IMG/VR virus record: IMGVR_UViG_3300032092_000274
Span: 1 to 23,024 of that record
DNA: 23,024 bases
Reading direction: 5' to 3' (one strand)
From: a virus
A program made the position numbers and the translations under genes. Of the stretch, positions 2,553 through 12,080 are shown one piece after another. Below the pieces are notes generated by a model. That model did no database searches, was not told the origin of the DNA, and worked only from the letters and a program-made list of their open reading frames with translations. The stretch's first letter is position 1. Each line of letters starts with the position of its first letter.

Positions 2553-2765
2553 ATGCAACAGCAATTGCAATCAGGGTCGGCTTTGCCCGAACCGTGGGTG
2601 TGTCCACTTTGCTACACCACCGGCTGCACCGCGCCAGGCAAATGCAAAGAATTGGCGCTTCGTAATCACGTCCTGGATGAAGTGGCTGCGGAATTCGACA
2701 AAATGACGGCCTTTGGCGATACCGCGGCATCGTTTGCGGTGTTTGTCCGGCAAATGAAACGTTAG
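2553..2765 (+). CDS. small protein with CxxC-type zinc-site motif
   Basis: The protein has about 70 residues. ATG 2553 is preferred over ATG 2544 because AAGGA at 2538-2542 is correctly spaced from 2553 but nearly touches 2544; the AAGGA-to-CCACCATG layout repeats the one before the ERF gene. Four cysteines in the order CX2CX4CX5C (CPLC, GC, KC, about residues 17-30) suggest a small zinc-binding knuckle, followed by a helical tail (LDEVAAEFDKM). It is the last gene of the rightward operon, and its TAG overlaps the stop codon of the convergent endolysin gene. The function is not recognised; a nucleic-acid-binding accessory is possible. Confidence 0.65.
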   Translation: MQQQLQSGSALPEPWVCPLCYTTGCTAPGKCKELALRNHVLDEVAAEFDKMTAFGDTAASFAVFVRQMKR

Positions 2766-3190
2766 GCAAACGCCCGCGTTCCGGCCTTGTCAATAATCAG
2801 GGCTTGGCGTCGGGGCTTGTCGCCGTCTTTGTTTGGAATGCTTATGTGCGTCCAACGGTCGAATTCGCGGATTACCTGGTCGTATTTGATGCCCGACGCA
2901 ATGACGGCCCGCACCACCTGGTCGGGCGTCATGCCAGGAATGCGAAGGTCGGCAGCGCAGCCAATACGGTGCTGGCTGGTGTCTTTTGATCCAACCGCAT
3001 CATTAACGGCTTTGCTGCGAAACGCCGAATTCACCATCACCGGCTTGCCGCCCAACACGATTTTGACTTCTTCCAGGAAATCGGCCAGGCGAACCAGATT
3101 GGCCATTTCCGCGTCGTTTGGCGTATTGTCCAGGTCGCGGTGATCGGTGAACGTCAATTCCTCAAAGGAAAAGTGTTCCGACAATTTCAT
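2762..3190 (-). CDS. M15-family peptidase endolysin
   Basis: The protein has 142 residues, typical of single-domain phage M15 endolysins. The zinc site is visible: SQHRIGCAADL supplies H74 and D81, and WTHISI supplies H115. R58 in SAFRS matches the conserved substrate-side arginine segment. The family (Peptidase_M15_3 type) cleaves peptide bonds in peptidoglycan stems. ATG 3190 overlaps the stop of the upstream holin candidate as ATGA, so the start is probably translationally coupled; no strong Shine-Dalgarno sequence is needed or seen. There is no signal peptide, so access to the cell wall would need a holin. It is the last gene of the leftward late operon, and its stop overlaps that of the opposing gene. 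Confidence 0.9.
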   Translation of the reverse strand: MKLSEHFSFEELTFTDHRDLDNTPNDAEMANLVRLADFLEEVKIVLGGKPVMVNSAFRSKAVNDAVGSKDTSQHRIGCAADLRIPGMTPDQVVRAVIASGIKYDQVIREFDRWTHISIPNKDGDKPRRQALIIDKAGTRAFA

Positions 3191-3361: not shown

Positions 3362-3601
3362 TCACTTATGAAAATAACTTGACAAATAACCGACGACGCT
3401 GGACGCCGCCGACACCAGGGCCATACCAGCCCAAAAGCCCCCGCGGCCTTGATTGGCCAGGGCCACCAGTTTTTCCAACTGGCCTTCCATCTTGTCCATT
3501 TTCTTGTCCATGTCGTCAAACCGGCGCTCGTAATCCTGAACCTTTTGCCAAAGGACGCCGTATTTCACGGGATCAATTTCTGCTTGTGCCATATCGTTCA
3601 T
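3362..3601 (-). CDS. XhlA-like membrane protein with coiled coil (lysis cassette)
   Basis: The protein has 79 residues. It begins with a charged heptad-like helix (KVQDYERRFDDMDKKMDKME) of about 40 residues, followed by a Gly-rich hinge and a single C-terminal membrane segment (FWAGMALVSAASSVVGYLSSYF). This layout resembles XhlA-type phage lysis accessory proteins, which act at the inner membrane together with a holin. ATG 3601 overlaps the stop of the 886-aa gene as ATGA and has no separate Shine-Dalgarno sequence, so coupled translation is likely. A second ATG at 3592 is possible. No Rz/Rz1 spanin pair was recognised in the cassette. Confidence 0.72.
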   Translation of the reverse strand: MNDMAQAEIDPVKYGVLWQKVQDYERRFDDMDKKMDKMEGQLEKLVALANQGRGGFWAGMALVSAASSVVGYLSSYFHK

Positions 3602-6258
3602 TTTTTAATCAAATCTTGGATGGGGACAAAACGCTGTTGCGTGTTTTCAAATGCCTTTTGTTCGGCCTGGGCCTGTGCTTTGGCTTGTTTTCTAGCCGTA
3701 CGTTGCCCTAAAAGTTCATTCGTAATTAAACCGGCGGTTGTTCCGGCTGCGCCAGCGGTTGATCCAAGCGTTGCGGCTTCAGTACCAACACCAGCAATAG
3801 TTGCCGCGCCTTTTTGCAACAATTGTTCTTTGATCTTGGAACCTAGTTTTTGTTCCACGTTGATTTTTTGAACGGCTGCGCCTTTATAACCGGTGTCGGT
3901 GGCCAGGATGTGAACGGCATTGTGGTAATCACGTAGATTGGCCATTTCGTCAGGCGTAAATACACGGTTCATTACCTCGCGGTTGTCGTTCATGTATTTG
4001 GTCAACTGGCGCGGTGTCTTTTGTTCCGCAACGCGGTTGGCAAATTGCGCTTTGATTTCCGACAACGCGGCCGTGGCCTGGGGTTGCAATTCCGGCGGGA
4101 CATTTCTCAAAGTATCCAAAACATGGGTTATTTGATCCACCGGCATATCGGCAATTGTTTGCGCGACTTTTTCAATTGGAACCTTACGATTTATTCCATT
4201 TGGCCCTTCAGAATCCAAAATTTTTGCAATTCCGTTTGGATTGTCCAAAGTATTTTTACGAAGTTCAACTAAAGCCCGTGCATCCTTGTAAAGCGGGGTG
4301 TTTGTGTCCAAGTTGGCCAGCACGTCTTCGTCCACCGCTTCTTTTAATTTGCGGTGCAAATTGGCATTTTTTCGGTCGTAATTTTCATTGAGGAATTGAC
4401 GGAAATTTTCTGCTGTTTTGGCATCGGTTGGCAATAGATTTCCATCTTTGTCAATCATTTTCAATTGCTTCATTCGCGCTTTAGCAATGTTGGTCAAGCC
4501 AATGGATTCGGTGTTGGCCAACGTCAGCGATTCGTCGCCCAAAACTTTTAAAATGTTGTTGGATTCGACGGGAATATCTTTGGCAATTGCATTGCGTTCG
4601 GCGTAAATTTTTTCAGTCGCTTTGTCAAAATAATTTTTTAAACCATCCAATGGTTTTAAAAGTGTGTTTCCGCGTTTGTAAACTGTGCTTTCGTCCAGGC
4701 CAACCGTGCCACCGGTGTTTTTGACTTGTCGTTCGGCAAAATCTGCCAAACGCTTTTGTTCGTCGGCAAACTTTTCCTTCAAAAAATTACCGGCGGCCGT
4801 GTCGGTGTTCGACGTGGCGTAATTGGTAGCGCGTTCTTTGCCTTTGCCTTCAATGGCAGCCAGGTCGGCGGCATGATCCGAACCCAAAACGCGATTTATT
4901 GTTTGGGCGCGGGCATACTGTTCGTCCAATGGCAAACCGTTTTCGGCATACTTAACTTCAGAAAAAGGCGCATCGGGCGTGGTAGGTTTGGCAGTTCCGG
5001 ACACGCCAGGCGTCGATTCTGCTGGCGCTGGTTGACCTTGCGTGGCCGATTGGCGTTCGGCTTGATAACGTTGATCCAATTCGTCCACGTTGCGTTTCAA
5101 TTCAACGCCAGGCGCCTCGACCCCAGGAACGGCCGCAGCCGCTTTGGGCTTGATGTTGGTAGTACCAGGCGCAATTGCTTCAACAACCGTTCCAACGGCC
5201 CGCTGGACTGGTTCGGGCGTCACGGCTTTAACAGCCTGACCAACATAACCGGCTTCCCGTCCAATTGCGCCGGTAACGGCTTGAACGGGTTTGGTTTTAG
5301 CAATTGCTTTGGCGCCACCAGGAATCAAAAACGTGGCCTGGTTGACCATGTTTTCCACGTCGCCTTTGGGAATGTTAATTCCTTGGCTTTGCAAACCTTG
5401 TTGGATTGCATCAACACCTTTTTCCAAATTGGCGCCAATGTAATCCATAACTTGGCGGCTGGCTTCGCCTTTGTATTCCGGCGTTCCGGTCACGCCTAAA
5501 GCGCGGCCCACAACGTCTTTGGGGCTGGTGGTTTCGGCTTTGGCTTTGGCTTCGGCTGCTTCAGGCGACATTTGTGTGCCGTAGTAAGCCCGCGCCAGCG
5601 GATAAGCCAAAACGTCCATTGTTCCGGTAATTGCATTTATGCCAACGTCGGCCACGCTGGCGGCTGCACGGCCTTGGCCGCGTAGGAATTGGCCAACCTT
5701 GCCGACAACGCCGCGGGGTTTTTCAACTTCGCCAGGCTTTGTTGTAAATGCTTCCTGAACCGCGCTGTTAATGTTTTGCGGGTTGAAATCGGCAAACCCT
5801 TGTGGGGTTTCCGTGCCGGTTGTTTGGCCAGGCATCAACACCGCGTGAACGGGGTCTTTTTTGCCAAGCGGCCGATGGATGCCAAAACGGTTCAGGAAAT
5901 CTTCGGGAACCTTGCTGGAAATGTCCACCGCTTCGGTGTGAAACGTGGATTGACCTGGGGCGCTGGCTGGATCAATTGGCGAAAACACGCCAGGCTTTCC
6001 AGCCTTACTTTGAGCAAATAATTTTTCTTGTTCAGCGCGGGTGCGAACGCCGCTGGTGATCGGCATATCCGTGCCGAATTCTTGTTTGTAAGCCGCCTGG
6101 GCTTTTTGCAAGTTGGCAAGCAACGCGGGGTTCAACCCTTCCAAATTGACCTGGCTTGGCTGTCCTGGTTGGCTTGATGGCTGCGGTGCGGCTTTCGGTT
6201 TACGGCCAAATGCTTGCCCCACCGCATTGTCAATGTCGGCAAGGTTTAAGGTTTCCAT
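3598..6258 (-). CDS. large internal virion / DNA-ejection protein with N-terminal M15-like peptidase domain
   Basis: The protein has 886 residues; ATG 6258 shares a base with the upstream stop (TAATG) and follows GGGGGC. Residues about 40-145 look like an M15/VanY-type peptidase: SGVRT near 69-73, FHTEAVDI with H107 and D112, and DPVHAV with H138. The usual H-to-D spacing is 7; here it is 5, so the motif is atypical and activity is uncertain. The 13-residue pattern IxxAVxxAFxxKP occurs at residues 9-21 and again at 163-175, on either side of the domain. The rest is low-complexity Pro/Ala linker, long helical sequence and an Ala/Gly-rich hydrophobic stretch near the C-terminus. By position it matches P22 gp16, the last ejection protein (about 609 aa). 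It probably crosses into the host with DNA and opens peptidoglycan. Confidence 0.8.
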   Translation of the reverse strand: METLNLADIDNAVGQAFGRKPKAAPQPSSQPGQPSQVNLEGLNPALLANLQKAQAAYKQEFGTDMPITSGVRTRAEQEKLFAQSKAGKPGVFSPIDPASAPGQSTFHTEAVDISSKVPEDFLNRFGIHRPLGKKDPVHAVLMPGQTTGTETPQGFADFNPQNINSAVQEAFTTKPGEVEKPRGVVGKVGQFLRGQGRAAASVADVGINAITGTMDVLAYPLARAYYGTQMSPEAAEAKAKAETTSPKDVVGRALGVTGTPEYKGEASRQVMDYIGANLEKGVDAIQQGLQSQGINIPKGDVENMVNQATFLIPGGAKAIAKTKPVQAVTGAIGREAGYVGQAVKAVTPEPVQRAVGTVVEAIAPGTTNIKPKAAAAVPGVEAPGVELKRNVDELDQRYQAERQSATQGQPAPAESTPGVSGTAKPTTPDAPFSEVKYAENGLPLDEQYARAQTINRVLGSDHAADLAAIEGKGKERATNYATSNTDTAAGNFLKEKFADEQKRLADFAERQVKNTGGTVGLDESTVYKRGNTLLKPLDGLKNYFDKATEKIYAERNAIAKDIPVESNNILKVLGDESLTLANTESIGLTNIAKARMKQLKMIDKDGNLLPTDAKTAENFRQFLNENYDRKNANLHRKLKEAVDEDVLANLDTNTPLYKDARALVELRKNTLDNPNGIAKILDSEGPNGINRKVPIEKVAQTIADMPVDQITHVLDTLRNVPPELQPQATAALSEIKAQFANRVAEQKTPRQLTKYMNDNREVMNRVFTPDEMANLRDYHNAVHILATDTGYKGAAVQKINVEQKLGSKIKEQLLQKGAATIAGVGTEAATLGSTAGAAGTTAGLITNELLGQRTARKQAKAQAQAEQKAFENTQQRFVPIQDLIKK

Positions 6259-7928
6259 TATTTGCCCCCGATCAATTTTTGCATTTGTCCAATTTTATTG
6301 ACCAGGTTTTGATAACCAGGCGAATTTTGGCCACCGGCTTGGCTCACCACTTCCTTGATGGCTTCATTGTCTTTGCTTCGAATGGCATCATACAAACGAA
6401 TCGCATTGATGCCGTCGTTGCCAAGTGTTTGCGACCAACGCTGCTGAAATTCTGATGCTGCAAATGGATTTTTTGTGCGATTGAAATTATTTTCAACGCC
6501 CTGGGCAAACAATTCTGTGCCGGTTGAAAGGGCGCGGTTTACGCGGGCAGTTTGCTTGATGGCTGCGGGTGTCCATTCGGTTGTGCCGGACATTTGGCCA
6601 GCAATTGCGCGGCCAGCGTCCGTGCTTGCCAAACCAGTACCGGCCGACAAGGCTTGCGTTTGCAGCGCCATGTAATGGCCTAGTTGCTGAAGGTTGGTTG
6701 CATTGTCGCCACCAATGCCAAGGCCATTTAAGCCAGCATAACCACCAGTTAAGTTTGCAAGTGTTCCGGAACCTTTACCGGAAATCACATCATCGGCCAA
6801 CTTGATAATTTGATTGCTGTTGAATTGCTGCACCGGCACTTGTTGGGCCATTGCACGGGTATCCAAACGCAATTTGGTTGCGGCTTCCAGCGTTGAAGCA
6901 TTTTCTCCCGCGGGCATCCGAACCGGCGCATTTGCTGGCAATGCTGGCGCCGGTTGCGGTTGTCCGGCAGCCGGAAGGGGTTGCGCCGTAATTGCCGGAA
7001 GGGGCATTGGGCCGCCAACAACAGGGCCGCCAGGCGCTTGAATGTTGTTTTGCGGTTGTACGCTGCCACCCATAACGCCGGTGGGCATTTGATTGGCAGC
7101 CGCGCCGCCTGGTTGCATTGCTGGATTTGCGCCAGCCGGAATAACCACTTCGCCCAACAATTCGCCGTTCGGGCCATAAGCCAAAGCGGTTGGGTTGTTG
7201 TTCATGTCCACGCGACCGGTTGCAACATAACGCGAACCTGGGCCAAGTTGATTGGTTGCCAAAGGCACTTGACCAACTTTAATGTTTGGCGCCTGACCCG
7301 CAACGGATGGACGTGTTTCCGTTGGCAAAATTTGTGCGCCGGTGTTTAGTGTTCCAGGCTGCGGGTTGTAATTGGTTTCCTGTGTGGAAACAGGCAACAA
7401 TGTTTGGGCGCCTGAAATTGCCAACTGTGCAAAATTGGTGTTTTCCGGCATCTTGCCCCAAATTGTTTTGTACGAATCAGCCAGGCGTCCAAGGTCGGGA
7501 TTGTTGGGGTTTGTGGCCACCAGGTCGTCCAGCGCCTTCAAATATGTGTCCCTGTTGTTCACACCGGCTTTGCCCAGGATGTTGAACGTTTGGCCGACCA
7601 ATGCTTTTTGGTCTTGCGTCAAACCTTGTTTGGCTTTGTTGGCTTGCGTTTGGGCCGTGCTTAAATCGGCCACGTTTTTCAAAACGTCGCGGCCCGTCAA
7701 TGGTGCAATTTTTGGAATCGCCGCATTGACTTTGGTCATGTCAATGTTGCCATCGGTTTGGAAATTTTCAGGATTGGAAAAAAAGTCCTGAAGCCCAACG
7801 CGTTCGGTGTCGGCTTGCTTTTCTTTTTTCAGCGCAATACCGCCGCGGCCAACGTTAATCATGTCGGCCAGCGACATTGATTGCGGTGGCTTGAGTTGAG
7901 TTGCAACCGGTGTGATGTTCAAATCCAT
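6258..7928 (-). CDS. internal virion / DNA-ejection protein (gp20 position)
   Basis: The protein has 556 residues; ATG 7928 follows AAGGAAAAAATC. The N-terminus (SLADMINVGRGGIALKKEKQ) is typical of podovirus internal proteins. A helical region is followed by a long Pro/Ala/Gln/Asn-rich segment (about residues 190-345) and then a helical C-terminal domain. There is no signal peptide or enzymatic motif. It lies between a gp7-sized and a gp16-sized protein, the position held by P22 gp20 (471 aa), which is ejected ahead of the genome. The assignment rests on synteny and composition, because sequence conservation in this class is low. Confidence 0.72.
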   Translation of the reverse strand: MDLNITPVATQLKPPQSMSLADMINVGRGGIALKKEKQADTERVGLQDFFSNPENFQTDGNIDMTKVNAAIPKIAPLTGRDVLKNVADLSTAQTQANKAKQGLTQDQKALVGQTFNILGKAGVNNRDTYLKALDDLVATNPNNPDLGRLADSYKTIWGKMPENTNFAQLAISGAQTLLPVSTQETNYNPQPGTLNTGAQILPTETRPSVAGQAPNIKVGQVPLATNQLGPGSRYVATGRVDMNNNPTALAYGPNGELLGEVVIPAGANPAMQPGGAAANQMPTGVMGGSVQPQNNIQAPGGPVVGGPMPLPAITAQPLPAAGQPQPAPALPANAPVRMPAGENASTLEAATKLRLDTRAMAQQVPVQQFNSNQIIKLADDVISGKGSGTLANLTGGYAGLNGLGIGGDNATNLQQLGHYMALQTQALSAGTGLASTDAGRAIAGQMSGTTEWTPAAIKQTARVNRALSTGTELFAQGVENNFNRTKNPFAASEFQQRWSQTLGNDGINAIRLYDAIRSKDNEAIKEVVSQAGGQNSPGYQNLVNKIGQMQKLIGGK

Positions 7929-7938
7929 GATTTTTTCC

Positions 7939-8634
7939 TTATCCCAAAAGCGCGTACATCATGCCCGCGTTGCCAATGTTGTTCAAGGCGCCTGAATAAG
8001 CATTTGCGGAACCAATTTGGCCGGACGCATAAGCATTGGCGCCAGCCACGCCCAATTGGCCAATGTTGGTTGCGCTGCCCATCATGGTATTGGCAACGTT
8101 GGTTCCAAGCGCACCGGCGGCCGAACCGGCGCCTGGTTGGCCTTGGCCAATATTGGCCACGCCGGACAAAGTGTTGTAAATGTCGCGCTTTTGCTGCATC
8201 AATTGTGGAAGCGCGGTTCCCATTGTGTAATCAATGGCAAACTTTTGGCCAGCACGTTGAACGTTTGATCCACCGCCGCCAACGTTCATTCCTTGCATGG
8301 CGCCGCCGGTTCCTTGCTGGACGGCAAACTGATAACCAGGCATATTTTGAATGTCTTGGGCGGTCACCGGCGAAGTCAAACCAGGCAACATTTCCTGAAG
8401 CCGCGTCAGCCCTTTGTAACCCGTTTCACGATAAGGTTGGCCAAGTTCCAATTGCTTTTGGAACATTTCCTTTTGGAAGGCAATCGAATCAAGCGCCGTT
8501 TGACGTTGCAATTGCGCGGCTTCTCCCGTAGCCCCCGCTTGCGCTTGTGCGCCGCTTTGGGCTGCTTTTGAACCCATGTAGCCACTTACAAGGCTTGTCC
8601 CACCAACAATTAGCGCGGCAGTTATAAATGACAT
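7939..8634 (-). CDS. DNA-transfer / ejection protein (gp7-like)
   Basis: The protein has 231 residues, close to P22 gp7 (about 229). ATG 8634 is preceded by AAGGGAAATAAA. The N-terminus is a hydrophobic helix (SFITAALIVGGTSLVSGYMG), followed by an Ala/Gln-rich helix and the family-like segment FQKEMFQKQLELGQPYRETGYKGL. The C-terminal half is Gly/Ala/Asn-rich and flexible. Proteins of this kind are packaged near the portal and released with DNA. It is the first of three consecutive ejection-type genes with small gaps. Confidence 0.78.
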   Translation of the reverse strand: MSFITAALIVGGTSLVSGYMGSKAAQSGAQAQAGATGEAAQLQRQTALDSIAFQKEMFQKQLELGQPYRETGYKGLTRLQEMLPGLTSPVTAQDIQNMPGYQFAVQQGTGGAMQGMNVGGGGSNVQRAGQKFAIDYTMGTALPQLMQQKRDIYNTLSGVANIGQGQPGAGSAAGALGTNVANTMMGSATNIGQLGVAGANAYASGQIGSANAYSGALNNIGNAGMMYALLG

Positions 8635-8635
8635 T

Positions 8636-9100
8636 TTATTTCCCTTCCAATTTTTGCATTTCGCAAATGATTTGCTTTAGTTTGTTGCCTGGGCCAAACA
8701 TGGCGGCTTCATCGGCTTCCACTAATTCTTCTTCAATTTTTTCAATGTCCGTTTCGTCAGTCTTATGAAACGTAATTCCAACCGAATCCATAGTCGCCAA
8801 AGTCACGCGTTTGGTTCCTGGTTGGCATTCAACAACATCACCAGCCTGAAGTTTTTTCATGCCTTTTTCCGTCCAGGCAATTATCTCGCCTTTGGCGCAT
8901 AAAAAGAAGTGGGGCTGTTTGTGAACCTTGCCAACAATCAGCGTTCCAGCCGGACGAAATAACCGGCGGCAATACATACCAGGCACAAAATAATGCTCAG
9001 TCACCAAACCTTCGGCTTGCGGATGCTTAACCATTTCGGCTTGCAGCCGTTCAATTTGTTCCCGCGTGGGTGTTTCATTAAAGATTTCAAGTTCAGTCAA
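8636..9100 (-). CDS. cupin-like small virion-region protein (gp14 position)
   Basis: The protein has 154 residues starting at TTG 9100. The TTG overlaps the previous stop as TTGA, follows GGGGG by about 7 bases, and no ATG exists near the front of the frame, so the rare start is well supported. The centre reads as a double-stranded beta-helix/cupin pattern (GTLIVGKVHKQPHFFLCAKG, then LQAGDVVECQPGTKR). Histidines are present but the full metal-binding set is incomplete. The C-terminus is acidic and helical (DIEKIEEELVEADEA). It occupies the place of P22 gene 14 (172 aa), between the needle and gp7 positions. The role may be structural or in assembly. Confidence 0.7.
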   Translation of the reverse strand: MTELEIFNETPTREQIERLQAEMVKHPQAEGLVTEHYFVPGMYCRRLFRPAGTLIVGKVHKQPHFFLCAKGEIIAWTEKGMKKLQAGDVVECQPGTKRVTLATMDSVGITFHKTDETDIEKIEEELVEADEAAMFGPGNKLKQIICEMQKLEGK

Positions 9101-9381
9101 AACGTACCCCCGCCAATTCCGTTCAAGGCTGTCAAATCGGTAAATTTGCCCGCGGCCGGTGTTGTTAGGCCAATGGTTGAATTGTTTATTACCGCATTGT
9201 CAATTGATACGTTGGCAATTGTGCCGCCCGTAATCACAATGTAAGCAATGGTGGCCGACAAAATGTCAGGGCTTTGCAGCCAAATAATCCATTCCCGCGC
9301 TGGCCGTCCGGTCGTTGGATCAAGGAATGCCGATTGCGGAAACCGAATGTTTGTCGATGACGCGGGATTGGGGGCAACCAT
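9097..9381 (-). CDS. 94-aa needle/fibre-anchor-like protein (gp26 position)
   Basis: ATG 9381 overlaps the gp10-like stop as TAATG and follows GGGGGATAAC. The N-terminal half has a pattern seen at the virion-proximal end of many phage tip or fibre proteins (FPQSAFLD, GR, WIIWLQ). The C-terminal half is beta-rich with INNSTIGLTTPAAGKFTDL (residues 65-83), a motif also present twice in the 733-aa fibre. It directly follows gp10, where P22 encodes the tail needle gp26 (233 aa), so a very short plug or needle, or a fibre adaptor, is inferred. No long coiled coil is present, unlike gp26. Confidence 0.62.
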   Translation of the reverse strand: MVAPNPASSTNIRFPQSAFLDPTTGRPAREWIIWLQSPDILSATIAYIVITGGTIANVSIDNAVINNSTIGLTTPAAGKFTDLTALNGIGGGTF

Positions 9382-10847
9382 TAGTTATCCCCCACCGACG
9401 CCTTTAGGTTTGCGGAAACAATCACGGCCTTGACCGGATCAGACACTACAACCTCAAAAATGCGGTCACGCGACCAACCCAGGCGTCGCCAAATGGCGCG
9501 GTTTTGATACCGGCCAATTTTGCCAATGGTGATCCAATGTTCGTTTGACCAGGTAGAACCGCCGTCATTTGACCAACGCAGCATGGCTTGGGGGTCTTCG
9601 CCCTGGCCGGTTGTAAGGCCAACGCCAGGTTGGAATTGGATTTGGAATTCCTCAAAAAACTGGCGTTGTAAATCCGTAGTCAGGTGAACCGCACGGCGCA
9701 AACGACGAATTGTTGAACCGTTGTCGGTGTAAACCGCGTTGTCCAGGCTGTAAATTTTGCCGTTTTCAAAGTCGCCGACCAGGTTCTTGCCAGCAAAGAA
9801 CGCATAGCAATTTGACCGGTGGCGGTAGTATCCGGCCACGTTGTCCCAGGAAAGCCATTTGTGCCATTGCTGCGTGGCCAGGTCATAAACCCATGTCAAA
9901 TCAATTGAAGGAAACGTCACGACATACATTTCGTGGCCTTCGATTTGGTAGGTATATGCAAACGCGTCGGATACGTCGGCGCCAACCAGGCTGTTTTCAA
10001 CCGCGTGGGTGGATGTTCGCACAAACGTGTAACCATTCACCGCGCCAATGATGGCCTGGCCGCGGGTGTCGCGGCTTACAAACATGAACGATTCACCAAA
10101 CCTGGCCACGGAATATTTGGCCGCGCAGCCGTGCTGCATGGTCGTGCCGCTTACCCGTTGAAACGGAAAAGTAATCAAGCCTGAAATTACGGTTCCAACG
10201 TCCACCCAAACTTCGGTGGTGACTTCGCCAAGCAAATAAACCTGGCGGTGGTCAACAATCAAAGCCACTAGGTTGTCAGGGGCGCCGTCTTTGCTGCCGT
10301 AGTTGCCCGTTGTGCTGACGGCAAGGCCAAGGTCAGTTGCCGCCCAATTTTGCGTGTTTGGTTCGTTGTAAATGATGTATGAATCCACCGTGTCGGTGGA
10401 CGTGGCGCCTTGCCACAAACCATCGGTTGAAGGCAGCGCGGTGAACGTGTTGGTGGCAGCCACCCAGGTATAACGGTTGGGGCCGTCCACAATGTAAGCG
10501 GTCAGGCCATTGTTGGTGGTCACGTTGTCGGTCATTTCAACCTGGCCGGTGCTGGTGGTCAGCGTTCCAATTTGCGTGGCCACAAAAGCGGTGGTGACGC
10601 TGTAAACGCGGTTGCCCACAACAACAACCAAATACTGGCTGCCGGACAACGCCCGCATTCCGCGCACTTCCGCTTGCCACAAAGCCAGTTCTTCAACCAA
10701 CCCAGGGGTAGGGTACAACGCAACAACGCCGCGGCTTCCAGGCTGCTTTGTGGGGTCAATTTCAGGATAAAAATTGATGCACTCTTGCGCGTCTTGGTAG
10801 ATTGACGGGGCTTCGTAAGAAGCGCCCACGAAGCCGAAGTCGGGCAT
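9381..10847 (-). CDS. P22 gp10-like packaged-DNA stabilisation / tail hub protein
   Basis: The protein has 488 residues; P22 gp10 has 472. The N-terminus matches the family (SYEAPSIYQDAQECINFYPE, then LYPTPGL at about residue 45). The remainder is a series of beta-propeller-like strands with repeated aromatic and Gly turns, as expected for the tail-accessory hub below the gp4-like ring. ATG 10847 shares a base with the upstream stop (TAATG) and follows GGGGGATTTG. Together with gp4-like and needle proteins it closes the portal and holds DNA in the head. Confidence 0.88.
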   Translation of the reverse strand: MPDFGFVGASYEAPSIYQDAQECINFYPEIDPTKQPGSRGVVALYPTPGLVEELALWQAEVRGMRALSGSQYLVVVVGNRVYSVTTAFVATQIGTLTTSTGQVEMTDNVTTNNGLTAYIVDGPNRYTWVAATNTFTALPSTDGLWQGATSTDTVDSYIIYNEPNTQNWAATDLGLAVSTTGNYGSKDGAPDNLVALIVDHRQVYLLGEVTTEVWVDVGTVISGLITFPFQRVSGTTMQHGCAAKYSVARFGESFMFVSRDTRGQAIIGAVNGYTFVRTSTHAVENSLVGADVSDAFAYTYQIEGHEMYVVTFPSIDLTWVYDLATQQWHKWLSWDNVAGYYRHRSNCYAFFAGKNLVGDFENGKIYSLDNAVYTDNGSTIRRLRRAVHLTTDLQRQFFEEFQIQFQPGVGLTTGQGEDPQAMLRWSNDGGSTWSNEHWITIGKIGRYQNRAIWRRLGWSRDRIFEVVVSDPVKAVIVSANLKASVGDN

Positions 10848-11821
10848 TATGCAAATCCCCCATCCATGATGAAACCGGCATCTTTTGATTTGCCCATTAA
10901 CAGCGTGTCAGGATAACGCGCCACTTGCGGCGGCCGCATATTGGTGCGTTTGATTGTCGCCTTTGCCTGGGCTGCCAACGAATTTATCATGGCCATTTGA
11001 ACCTGGTTCATTTTGCCAAACATAGGCAGCAACCGTTCAGCCAAACACCAGCGTAATGCGTTGATGTAACCAGGCGGCAATGCAATGTCGTCGGTCTGCG
11101 CCGTAAACGTGCGGAATTGCGTATAAGCAAAAATGTGCATTTCGCCTTGGGCGGGATTTGGCCAAACGTAAATTGTGCCAAGGTTTTCGCTTGCCTGGTA
11201 ATAAACGCCTTTTGGCCAGGGGCCGTTCAATTGCTTTAGGCCAATGGATTCGTATTGTTCTAGGGCAAAAATTGCCACGGGGTAATCCAGGCCGCCGCCG
11301 TAAATTGGGGCGCCATTGCTGGTTGTGGTCACGCGCACAAACGCTGATTCCAACGTCAGCGGCCGTTCGTAGTAACCCTGAATGGTTGTGCTGGCCACCG
11401 TTTGCGATTTGCTGACGGTGTACGTTCCCGCTTCGTTAACGTTGCCGCCGCCGCCGGTGTTGAAATTCACAATCGTGGTTCCGGCTGCAATGCCAGTTCC
11501 CGACAGCGTTTGGCCAATCGTGATGGCGCCGGATGTGACGCCGTTGGCGGGAATCGTCAGGGTTGTGCCGCTGATTGAACCGGTGAATGTGCAGCCGACC
11601 TGGCCACCTGGGCCAATGGTGTATTGCGTTTGGTTTTGAACGACGGGGAAAATGATTTCGGTTTTGTAAAAAACCATCATGTTTTCGTTCGACCATTGGG
11701 CGCACATATCGTTCAACATATCGTAGCCGTCTTGGGCTTCGTCAGCGGTTGGCACTTCGCCCGCGGCCAACGCGCCAATGTCTTTCATGGCGCGGGTAAC
11801 AATGTCAAACGGCGTGGTCAT
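10847..11821 (-). CDS. P22 gp4-like head-completion protein with beta-rich insertion
   Basis: The protein has 324 residues from ATG 11821. This start follows GAGGAATAAC and gives [18 protein letters not shown]; the frame is open further upstream but lies inside the preceding gene. The N-terminal 75 residues ([20 protein letters not shown], then QYTIGPGG) match gp4-type portal-ring adaptors, as do the [10 protein letters not shown] and [17 protein letters not shown] segments. P22 gp4 has only 166 residues. An insert at about residues 77-147 accounts for part of the excess. The protein probably binds the portal and recruits gp10 during head completion. Confidence 0.85.
11381..11593 (-). other. 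inserted Gly/Thr-rich beta domain within the gp4-like protein
   Basis: This covers residues about 77-147 of the gp4-like protein, between GPGG and [11 protein letters not shown]. The segment contains [26 protein letters not shown] and [14 protein letters not shown]. That pattern recurs in unrelated phage structural proteins and is not part of the P22 gp4 fold, so it looks like a shuffled surface domain. Boundaries are approximate. Confidence 0.6.
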
Positions 11822-11822
11822 G

Positions 11823-12080
11823 TTATTCCTCGATCTCTGCTTGCGCGGCTGCTTGCGCGGCCTGATAGGCTGCAATTACTTCAGGCGTATGCACCGCGGC
11901 GCAAATGGCCTGAACCTTTGCATCTTCGGCGCTGTAATCGTCCCCAGGGCAGACTACATGGCGGTGGAATGTGCCGCTAAGTTGTTTTCCATCTTCCATG
12001 ACACGGGTGCAAGTACGAACCTGGACAACGCCGTTTTCCACGGTTTCAATTAAGTCAACAACAATTTGTTTTTTTAGCAT
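11823..12080 (-). CDS. small conserved protein adjoining the fibre cassette
   Basis: The protein has 85 residues; ATG 12080 follows AAGGAAGTATT. The core reads [19 protein letters not shown], followed by [10 protein letters not shown], with a helical Ala/Gln/Glu-rich tail. Proteins of this type commonly lie next to tail-fibre genes in podoviruses and cyanophages, but their role is unknown to me. The stop leaves the gp4-like Shine-Dalgarno sequence overlapping its last codons, so the two genes are tightly linked. There is no membrane segment or enzymatic motif. Confidence 0.7.

Follow-up and report, generated by a model that had tools for sequence, protein, structure and literature searches.

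In phage T7, the ejection protein gp16 begins with a lytic domain followed by a 72-residue 'molecular tape', which is described as stitching the C-terminal regions of gp15 into a periplasmic tunnel (PDB 7K5C; PMC8954989), and the virion core is described as a gp15 octamer with a gp16 tetramer (PMC11784390). P22 gp16 is described as having no lytic domain (PMC8954989). In P22, Sf6 gene 16 or gene 20 alone is reported to give no plaque-forming phage, while both together work, a result taken by the authors to mean that the two gene products must interact; the C-terminus of P22 gp20 is likewise reported as essential (PMC10883804). Ejection proteins of the gp16 type are already known to require a matching gp20/gp15-type protein (P22/Sf6) and to be in contact with it (T7). 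For P22-type phages, the literature consulted names no sequence element that governs this match, and a literature search found no description of a linear motif in phage ejection proteins in titles or the opening lines of abstracts.

Here we describe two 13-residue segments in the gp16-position ejection protein of a phage. Sequence comparison suggests that these segments are copies of a docking peptide that probably attaches the protein, by direct binding, to the C-terminal domain of U1, the protein encoded directly upstream.

The ejection locus and its duplicated peptide

The DNA analysed, referred to here as the window, is a 23-kb piece (23,024 nucleotides) of a podovirus-type genome. Its late genes lie on the minus strand and read, in transcription order, scaffold-like, coat, fibre-like genes, adaptor, the head-closure protein Hc3, two small genes, gp7-like, U1 and the 886-aa protein, the scaffold, coat and fibre names being given by eye and via relatives. 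This is the order of P22 (NC_002371) genes 10 - 26 - 14 - 7 - 20 - 16, with Hc3 in the gene 10 position, which places U1 in the position of gp20 (T7 gp15) and the 886-aa protein in that of gp16 (Table 1). Further up the same gene order, the adaptor-like head-tail protein (window 10847-11875, minus strand) has an insert at about residues 95-165 that matches the tail fibre family phrog_38233, and the Hc3-like proteins of loci L033-L035, L058 and L061 are about 700-745 aa long versus 488 in the window, which suggests that inserts are present in several neck proteins.

Table 1. Features of the ejection locus in the window, and peptide pairs of related lineages
Feature	Position in window	Strand	Basis or remark
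886-aa ejection protein, P22 gene-16 position, containing both peptides	3598..6258	-	translation and gene order
Conserved C-terminal region (residues 440-886)	3601..4941	-	sequence comparison; does not follow peptide class
Peptide copy 2, INSAVQEAFTTKP, residues 163-175	5734..5772	-	isolated short helix (164-169) in disordered linker in model, low confidence
M15/VanY-like domain between the copies (about residues 40-145)	5824..6141	-	Pfam, PHROG, model, motifs
Peptide copy 1, IDNAVGQAFGRKP, residues 9-21	6196..6234	-	isolated short helix (6-16) in model, low confidence
U1, 556 aa, P22 gene-20 / T7 gene-15 position, directly upstream, overlapping ejection gene start	6258..7928	-	translation, gene order
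U1 C-terminal 230 residues, proposed docking domain	6261..6950	-	helical in model; sequence follows peptide class
gp7-like DNA ejection protein (U2)	7939..8634	-	phrog_598, E 3.9e-14; does not follow peptide class
L011 pair			DPYAKYL/DPYEKYL
L012 pair			DPSAKYL, both copies
L013 pair			DLFLRAL/DIFLRAL, in tandem
L014 pair			DALEEYL/DELEQYL
L050 pair			DEVLDLI/DEVLNLI
L047 pair			FAELWD/FADLWE
L021 pair			DEISALILGE/DDISSLILGE, around SLT lytic transglycosylase domain
L022 pair			DAVEQLF/DSIEQLF
L077-L082 group pairs			DPFSALMAKAG, IDPSKxxWD or DPLLxMAxxV types, in tandem after enzyme
Skarpretter (E. coli MG1655 phage) pair			NVFDQFDQD/NVFDQFGDY, around SLT domain; by eye

Over the C-terminal 447 residues of the ejection protein, identity to the 18 other first-search loci with a match there is 70-100%, and the N-terminal half is a patchwork across relatives. 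The original prediction singled out the pattern I..AV..AF..KP in that half, and the pattern indeed occurs exactly twice in the 886-aa open reading frame, with equal spacing, on either side of an M15-like domain. The domain match itself is weak in Pfam (VanY, E 0.0019, 18.4 bits against a cut-off of 25), with PHROG endolysin families at E 7e-6 and 3e-5. The motifs FHxxAxD and DPVH are found in all seven M15-bearing proteins looked at; in the window protein, FHTEAVD (106-112) and DPVH (135-138) contain candidate zinc ligands, following the M15 pattern of HxxxxD and a downstream H. A free-standing second M15 peptidase or endolysin is encoded just downstream (window 2762-3190, minus strand; Pfam PF08291, E 4.5e-15; phrog_894), so this phage has two M15-like enzymes.

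In the AlphaFold model of the 886-aa protein, the M15-like domain and the C-domain are well folded, and both peptides are isolated short helices in linkers (block pLDDT 27-47). Residues 15-35 and 146-232 fall below pLDDT 50, with a short helix at each copy. As modelled, the segments thus have the character of a short linear docking motif, that is, a short conserved peptide within a disordered linker. The model of U1 has a pLDDT of 65 and a helical C-terminal part. Fold searches gave a best E of 1.0 for U1 against the PDB, with no solved fold matched, and of 0.28 for the ejection protein, and we therefore claim no structural assignment. A profile search of solved structures returned zero matches for U1, and a Pfam scan of the window U1 gave no match to any family, including PF16928 (Inj_translocase, the gp20 family). 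The U1-position protein of phage Skarpretter does match PF16928 (E 2e-12), which was the only informative family in Pfam and PHROG scans of the U1 proteins.

Peptide pairs across relatives

Relatives were collected by a first search of viral contigs (19 loci) and by a profile of the conserved C-terminal region (62 loci). A set of 75 proteins, many of them the same contig twice, was condensed to 22 N-terminal clusters. L075 was dropped because its start is truncated, and the L077 and L080 clusters were kept out of tests on a set of 20 lineages and included in a set of 36. A further 28 proteins (20 distinct N-terminal halves) contributed seven additions, the rest repeating or resembling lineages already present. 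Because the frame read for L019 yields a non-homologous C-terminal part, this lineage was omitted from the C-domain test on 20 lineages, though it was used in the one on 36; in this protein (L019:2467-5085) family likeness is lost after about residue 400, perhaps through a contig frameshift or a different C-terminal region. U1 of L046 was read in part (341 aa) and left out of the 20-lineage tests on the U1 N-terminus and middle, and the C-domain starts of PBR31, Skarpretter and PAE2 were set by hand. Among named phages, tblastn found only two weak relatives of the ejection protein, and a near-identity DNA search with window 3598-11875 found none.

A peptide pair is present in all 36 lineages compared, with copies picked by eye in some, for example L036, L071, L114, PBR31, Skarpretter and PAE2. 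The sequences are lineage-specific (AVxxAF, DPxxKYL, DALEKFL, DEVLDLI, FADLW, DPFSALM and others) and the copies match within a protein; close relatives keep both peptides with changes. Such pairs occur in environmental phages, prophages and named isolates, the last including, by eye, PAE2 of P. aeruginosa and PBR31 of Xanthomonas. This excludes one of the two outcomes that the original prediction named as refuting it, namely that the pattern is absent from all homologues. No pair was seen by eye in CBW1004C or in AP1 (start uncertain), both kept out of the tests, and no duplicated peptide was seen in P22 gp16 or in residues 1-250 of T7 gp16. The pair is thus one solution among several in podovirus-type phages. 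P22 gp16 (L162:4485-6314) has a single N-terminal stretch, DIGAAVDEYFAG, that resembles the window-class peptide; this likeness may be due to chance.

Could the repeat itself be a coincidence in an Ala-rich helical protein? In an unbiased all-against-all scan of 10-mers with block shuffles, the window protein alone gives p = 0.10, so that its pair, taken singly, could be chance, and it is among the 10 of 36 lineages that miss p < 0.05. Across lineages the picture is different: 26 of 36 pass this threshold in the scan, compared with 4 of 36 for the start of U1, 1 of 36 for its end and 4 of 36 for the C-domain. In addition, the N-terminus of a protein ranks first against its own downstream region in 12 of the 22 N-terminal clusters, where about one is expected. 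That such a pattern might be equally common at random, the second refuting outcome, is excluded across the lineages but not for the window protein by itself, and coincidence as an account of the pairs is hardly credible. The likeness of the copies is also held at the protein level and does not stem from a recent duplication. Summed over the 36 lineages, and leaving aside Met and Trp, the copies agree in their residue at 239 positions; the same codon is used in 112 of these, with 112.2 expected from gene codon usage, and four-fold sites differ between copies in 52 of 84. Elsewhere in the same loci, other open reading frames reach 0.8 of a lineage's own score in 3 of 36 lineages, as do reversed decoys (3 of 36), so that no peptide copy is credited to them. 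As for third copies within the ejection protein, a single extra match equals the (low) own score of L071, and L106 has one weaker match; no other third copy stands out.

The original prediction also offered another reading, in which an enzyme domain was transplanted and the segments are the repeated linkers that mark it. Copies do bracket an enzyme in many lineages, and the type of enzyme is freely exchanged, the pair being kept where it is swapped for an unrelated one (L019, L045, L022, L021 and L074). However, there is no enzyme between the copies in L050, L046, L058, L071 and PBR31, the M15 domain of L037 lies downstream of both copies, and the proteins of the L077-L082 group and relatives open with an SLT or glucosaminidase-like domain and carry the two copies in tandem behind it (enzyme domain names in this distant group were assigned by eye; SLT in L021 and Skarpretter was not). 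Copies therefore do not always flank an enzyme: flanking is common, and two copies are the rule in these lineages. Since the pair survives both exchange and absence of the enzyme, keeps no nucleotide memory of a duplication and associates with a domain of another protein, an origin as linkers is extremely improbable. L019 and L045 have an NPGA-type domain whose counterpart in PBR31 sits, by eye, inside the U1-position protein (L083:5998-7743) and not the gp16-position protein, and the enzyme thus appears to move between ejection proteins.

Co-variation with the C-terminal domain of U1

Pairwise comparisons show that lineages near-identical in the C-domain can bear unrelated peptides, and that U1 then differs as well. 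U1 is itself mosaic: most lineages have a similar N-terminus, the middle is common to several peptide classes, and the last 200-250 residues form blocks that coincide with peptide class. The N-terminal likeness includes an opening block (SLxDMMNxARGAQAYQQ-like; window 7830-7874, minus strand, residues 19-33), which is conserved in most lineages within an otherwise mosaic protein and is possibly a second, invariant contact.

In Mantel tests on 20 lineages, both copies follow the U1 C-terminus, with rho 0.62 for copy 1 and 0.61 for copy 2 (p 0.0002 in each case, the lowest value that the test can give), and partial tests agree. Association with the U1 N-terminus is weak (0.21, p 0.04 and 0.19, p 0.03, for copies 1 and 2), and none was found in this set with the U1 middle (rho 0.03 and 0.05), the gp7-like U2 (0.06 and 0.11), the segment between the copies (0.05 and -0.02), the segment after copy 2 (-0.05 and -0.04) or the C-domain (-0.04 and -0.10). 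With 36 lineages, both copies follow the U1 C-terminus at rho 0.32 (p 0.0002), and at 0.28 and 0.29 in partial tests on the U1 N-terminus, cargo, post and C-domain segments. Restricting the set to the 26 automatically found pairs gives rho 0.30 for copy 1 and 0.37 for copy 2 (p 0.0002). The cargo is weakly associated in the 36-lineage set (copy 1 rho 0.20, falling to 0.13 with p 0.018 when the U1 C-terminus is given). Mantel permutations correct only in part for the kinship of the lineages; pairs with near-identical C-domains guard against this. Of these there are 22 with C-domain similarity of at least 0.8, and every one is concordant: peptide and U1 C-terminus are both alike in 8 and both different in 14.

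Concordance also holds in 76 of the 82 lineage pairs with a common cargo. The other six have like U1 ends and unlike peptides, and in none of the 82 are alike peptides found with different U1 C-termini. In the full set of 630 pairs, 71 have like U1 C-termini, and 27 of these miss the cut-off for peptide likeness, while 12 pairs with like peptides have a U1 similarity below 0.3, so that the rule is strong and not absolute. Individual departures include L114, which has a window-class U1 C-terminus and a peptide score of only 4 against its nearest U1 relative, L019, its peptide being by eye like that of L036. In support of the rule, the later-found L115 combines a DPVSDLILGA-type peptide with a DEVLDLI/DALEKFL-class end of U1; its closest U1 C-terminus is that of L021 (0.47), with a peptide score of 33. 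On balance, this co-variation lends good support to the proposal in the original prediction that the segments are docking peptides for another virion protein.

The co-variation could also arise by hitch-hiking, in which copy 1 co-recombines with the adjoining end of U1 and then serves as the source of copy 2 through duplication or gene conversion, with no binding involved. The U1 gene runs into the start of the ejection gene, recombination in phages moves genes in blocks, and the middle of U1 and the gp7-like U2 are unrelated to peptide class, as this explanation would have it; the overlap and adjacency indicate that linkage contributes at least to copy 1 where it is N-terminal. Yet copy 2 tracks the U1 C-terminus equally well and the intervening segment does not (rho 0.07, p 0.22), and the saturation of synonymous sites in the copies leaves no signal of conversion. 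When L081 and L080 are compared with L097 and L106, the upstream enzyme is alike (cargo 0.61-0.69), and the peptide and the U1 C-terminus change together (U1 C-terminus 0.04-0.09). The copies of this tandem group follow the enzyme, at a distance of 140-230 residues from the protein start. Hitch-hiking is thus already strained as an explanation, and we regard it as unlikely.

A different partner would be expected if the peptides bound portal, scaffold or coat for loading into the procapsid. The T4 capsid targeting sequence loads proteins into the head, and short amphipathic peptides at or near the N-terminus are a known loading device. Moreover, a P22 mutant in the N-loop of the scaffold is reported to make virions with less gp16 (PMC12005531). 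Against this, the peptide class differs between L046 and L073 despite similarities of 0.97 in coat, 0.96 in scaffold and 0.94 in portal, and between L093 and L104 despite 0.95 in coat and 0.85 in scaffold. In the 15-18 lineages with head genes, association with coat, scaffold and portal is lost once the U1 C-terminus is taken into account (the largest remaining value is 0.17 for coat, p 0.086), and the association with the U1 C-terminus survives given each of the three. A head-targeting tag is therefore very unlikely.

Proposed docking and comparison with known systems

If the peptides dock on U1, each copy would be a short amphipathic helix on a disordered linker, fitting into a groove or seam on the C-terminal domain of U1. 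Such docking would keep the peptidoglycan-cutting domain attached to a tube of U1 while the virion is assembled, in the periplasm, or both, much as the lytic domain and 'molecular tape' of T7 gp16 sit on the gp15 C-termini; it may act in the virion or after ejection. Two copies could let one gp16-like chain bridge two U1 subunits; for comparison, the T7 core pairs a gp15 octamer with a gp16 tetramer. More tentatively, the arrangement may possibly amount to a 'plug and socket' code, in which a lineage's own peptide and the socket in the U1 C-terminus are exchanged together, the two plugs accept any peptidoglycan-cutting domain, be it between them or on either side, and the constant number of two sets one gp16-like chain to two gp20/gp15-like chains.

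In this proposal, a peptide of about 10 residues and a partner domain of about 200 residues would decide whether the two proteins match. Dozens of natural combinations of peptide and U1, matched and mismatched, exist for comparison.

The T4 capsid targeting sequence and the encapsulation peptides of bacterial microcompartments are likewise short amphipathic peptides tied to their cargo by flexible linkers. In contrast to these, the peptides described here come in two copies, are lineage-specific and track another ejection protein and not the shell. The gp16-gp20 pair of P22 and Sf6 shares with this locus the gene positions and, in the consulted part of that account, the rule that the two proteins must match; the matching surface is not named there (PMC10883804). 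Unlike the window protein, P22 gp16 has neither a lytic domain nor a peptide pair. The N-terminal part of T7 gp16 on gp15 resembles the window in its gene order and in placing a peptidoglycan-cutting N-terminal domain beside an extended stretch. By analogy, the pair is best read as a counterpart of the gp16 'molecular tape' in the form of a putative bivalent docking peptide: where T7 has one 72-residue stretch after the domain, these phages have two copies of one short, lineage-specific peptide.
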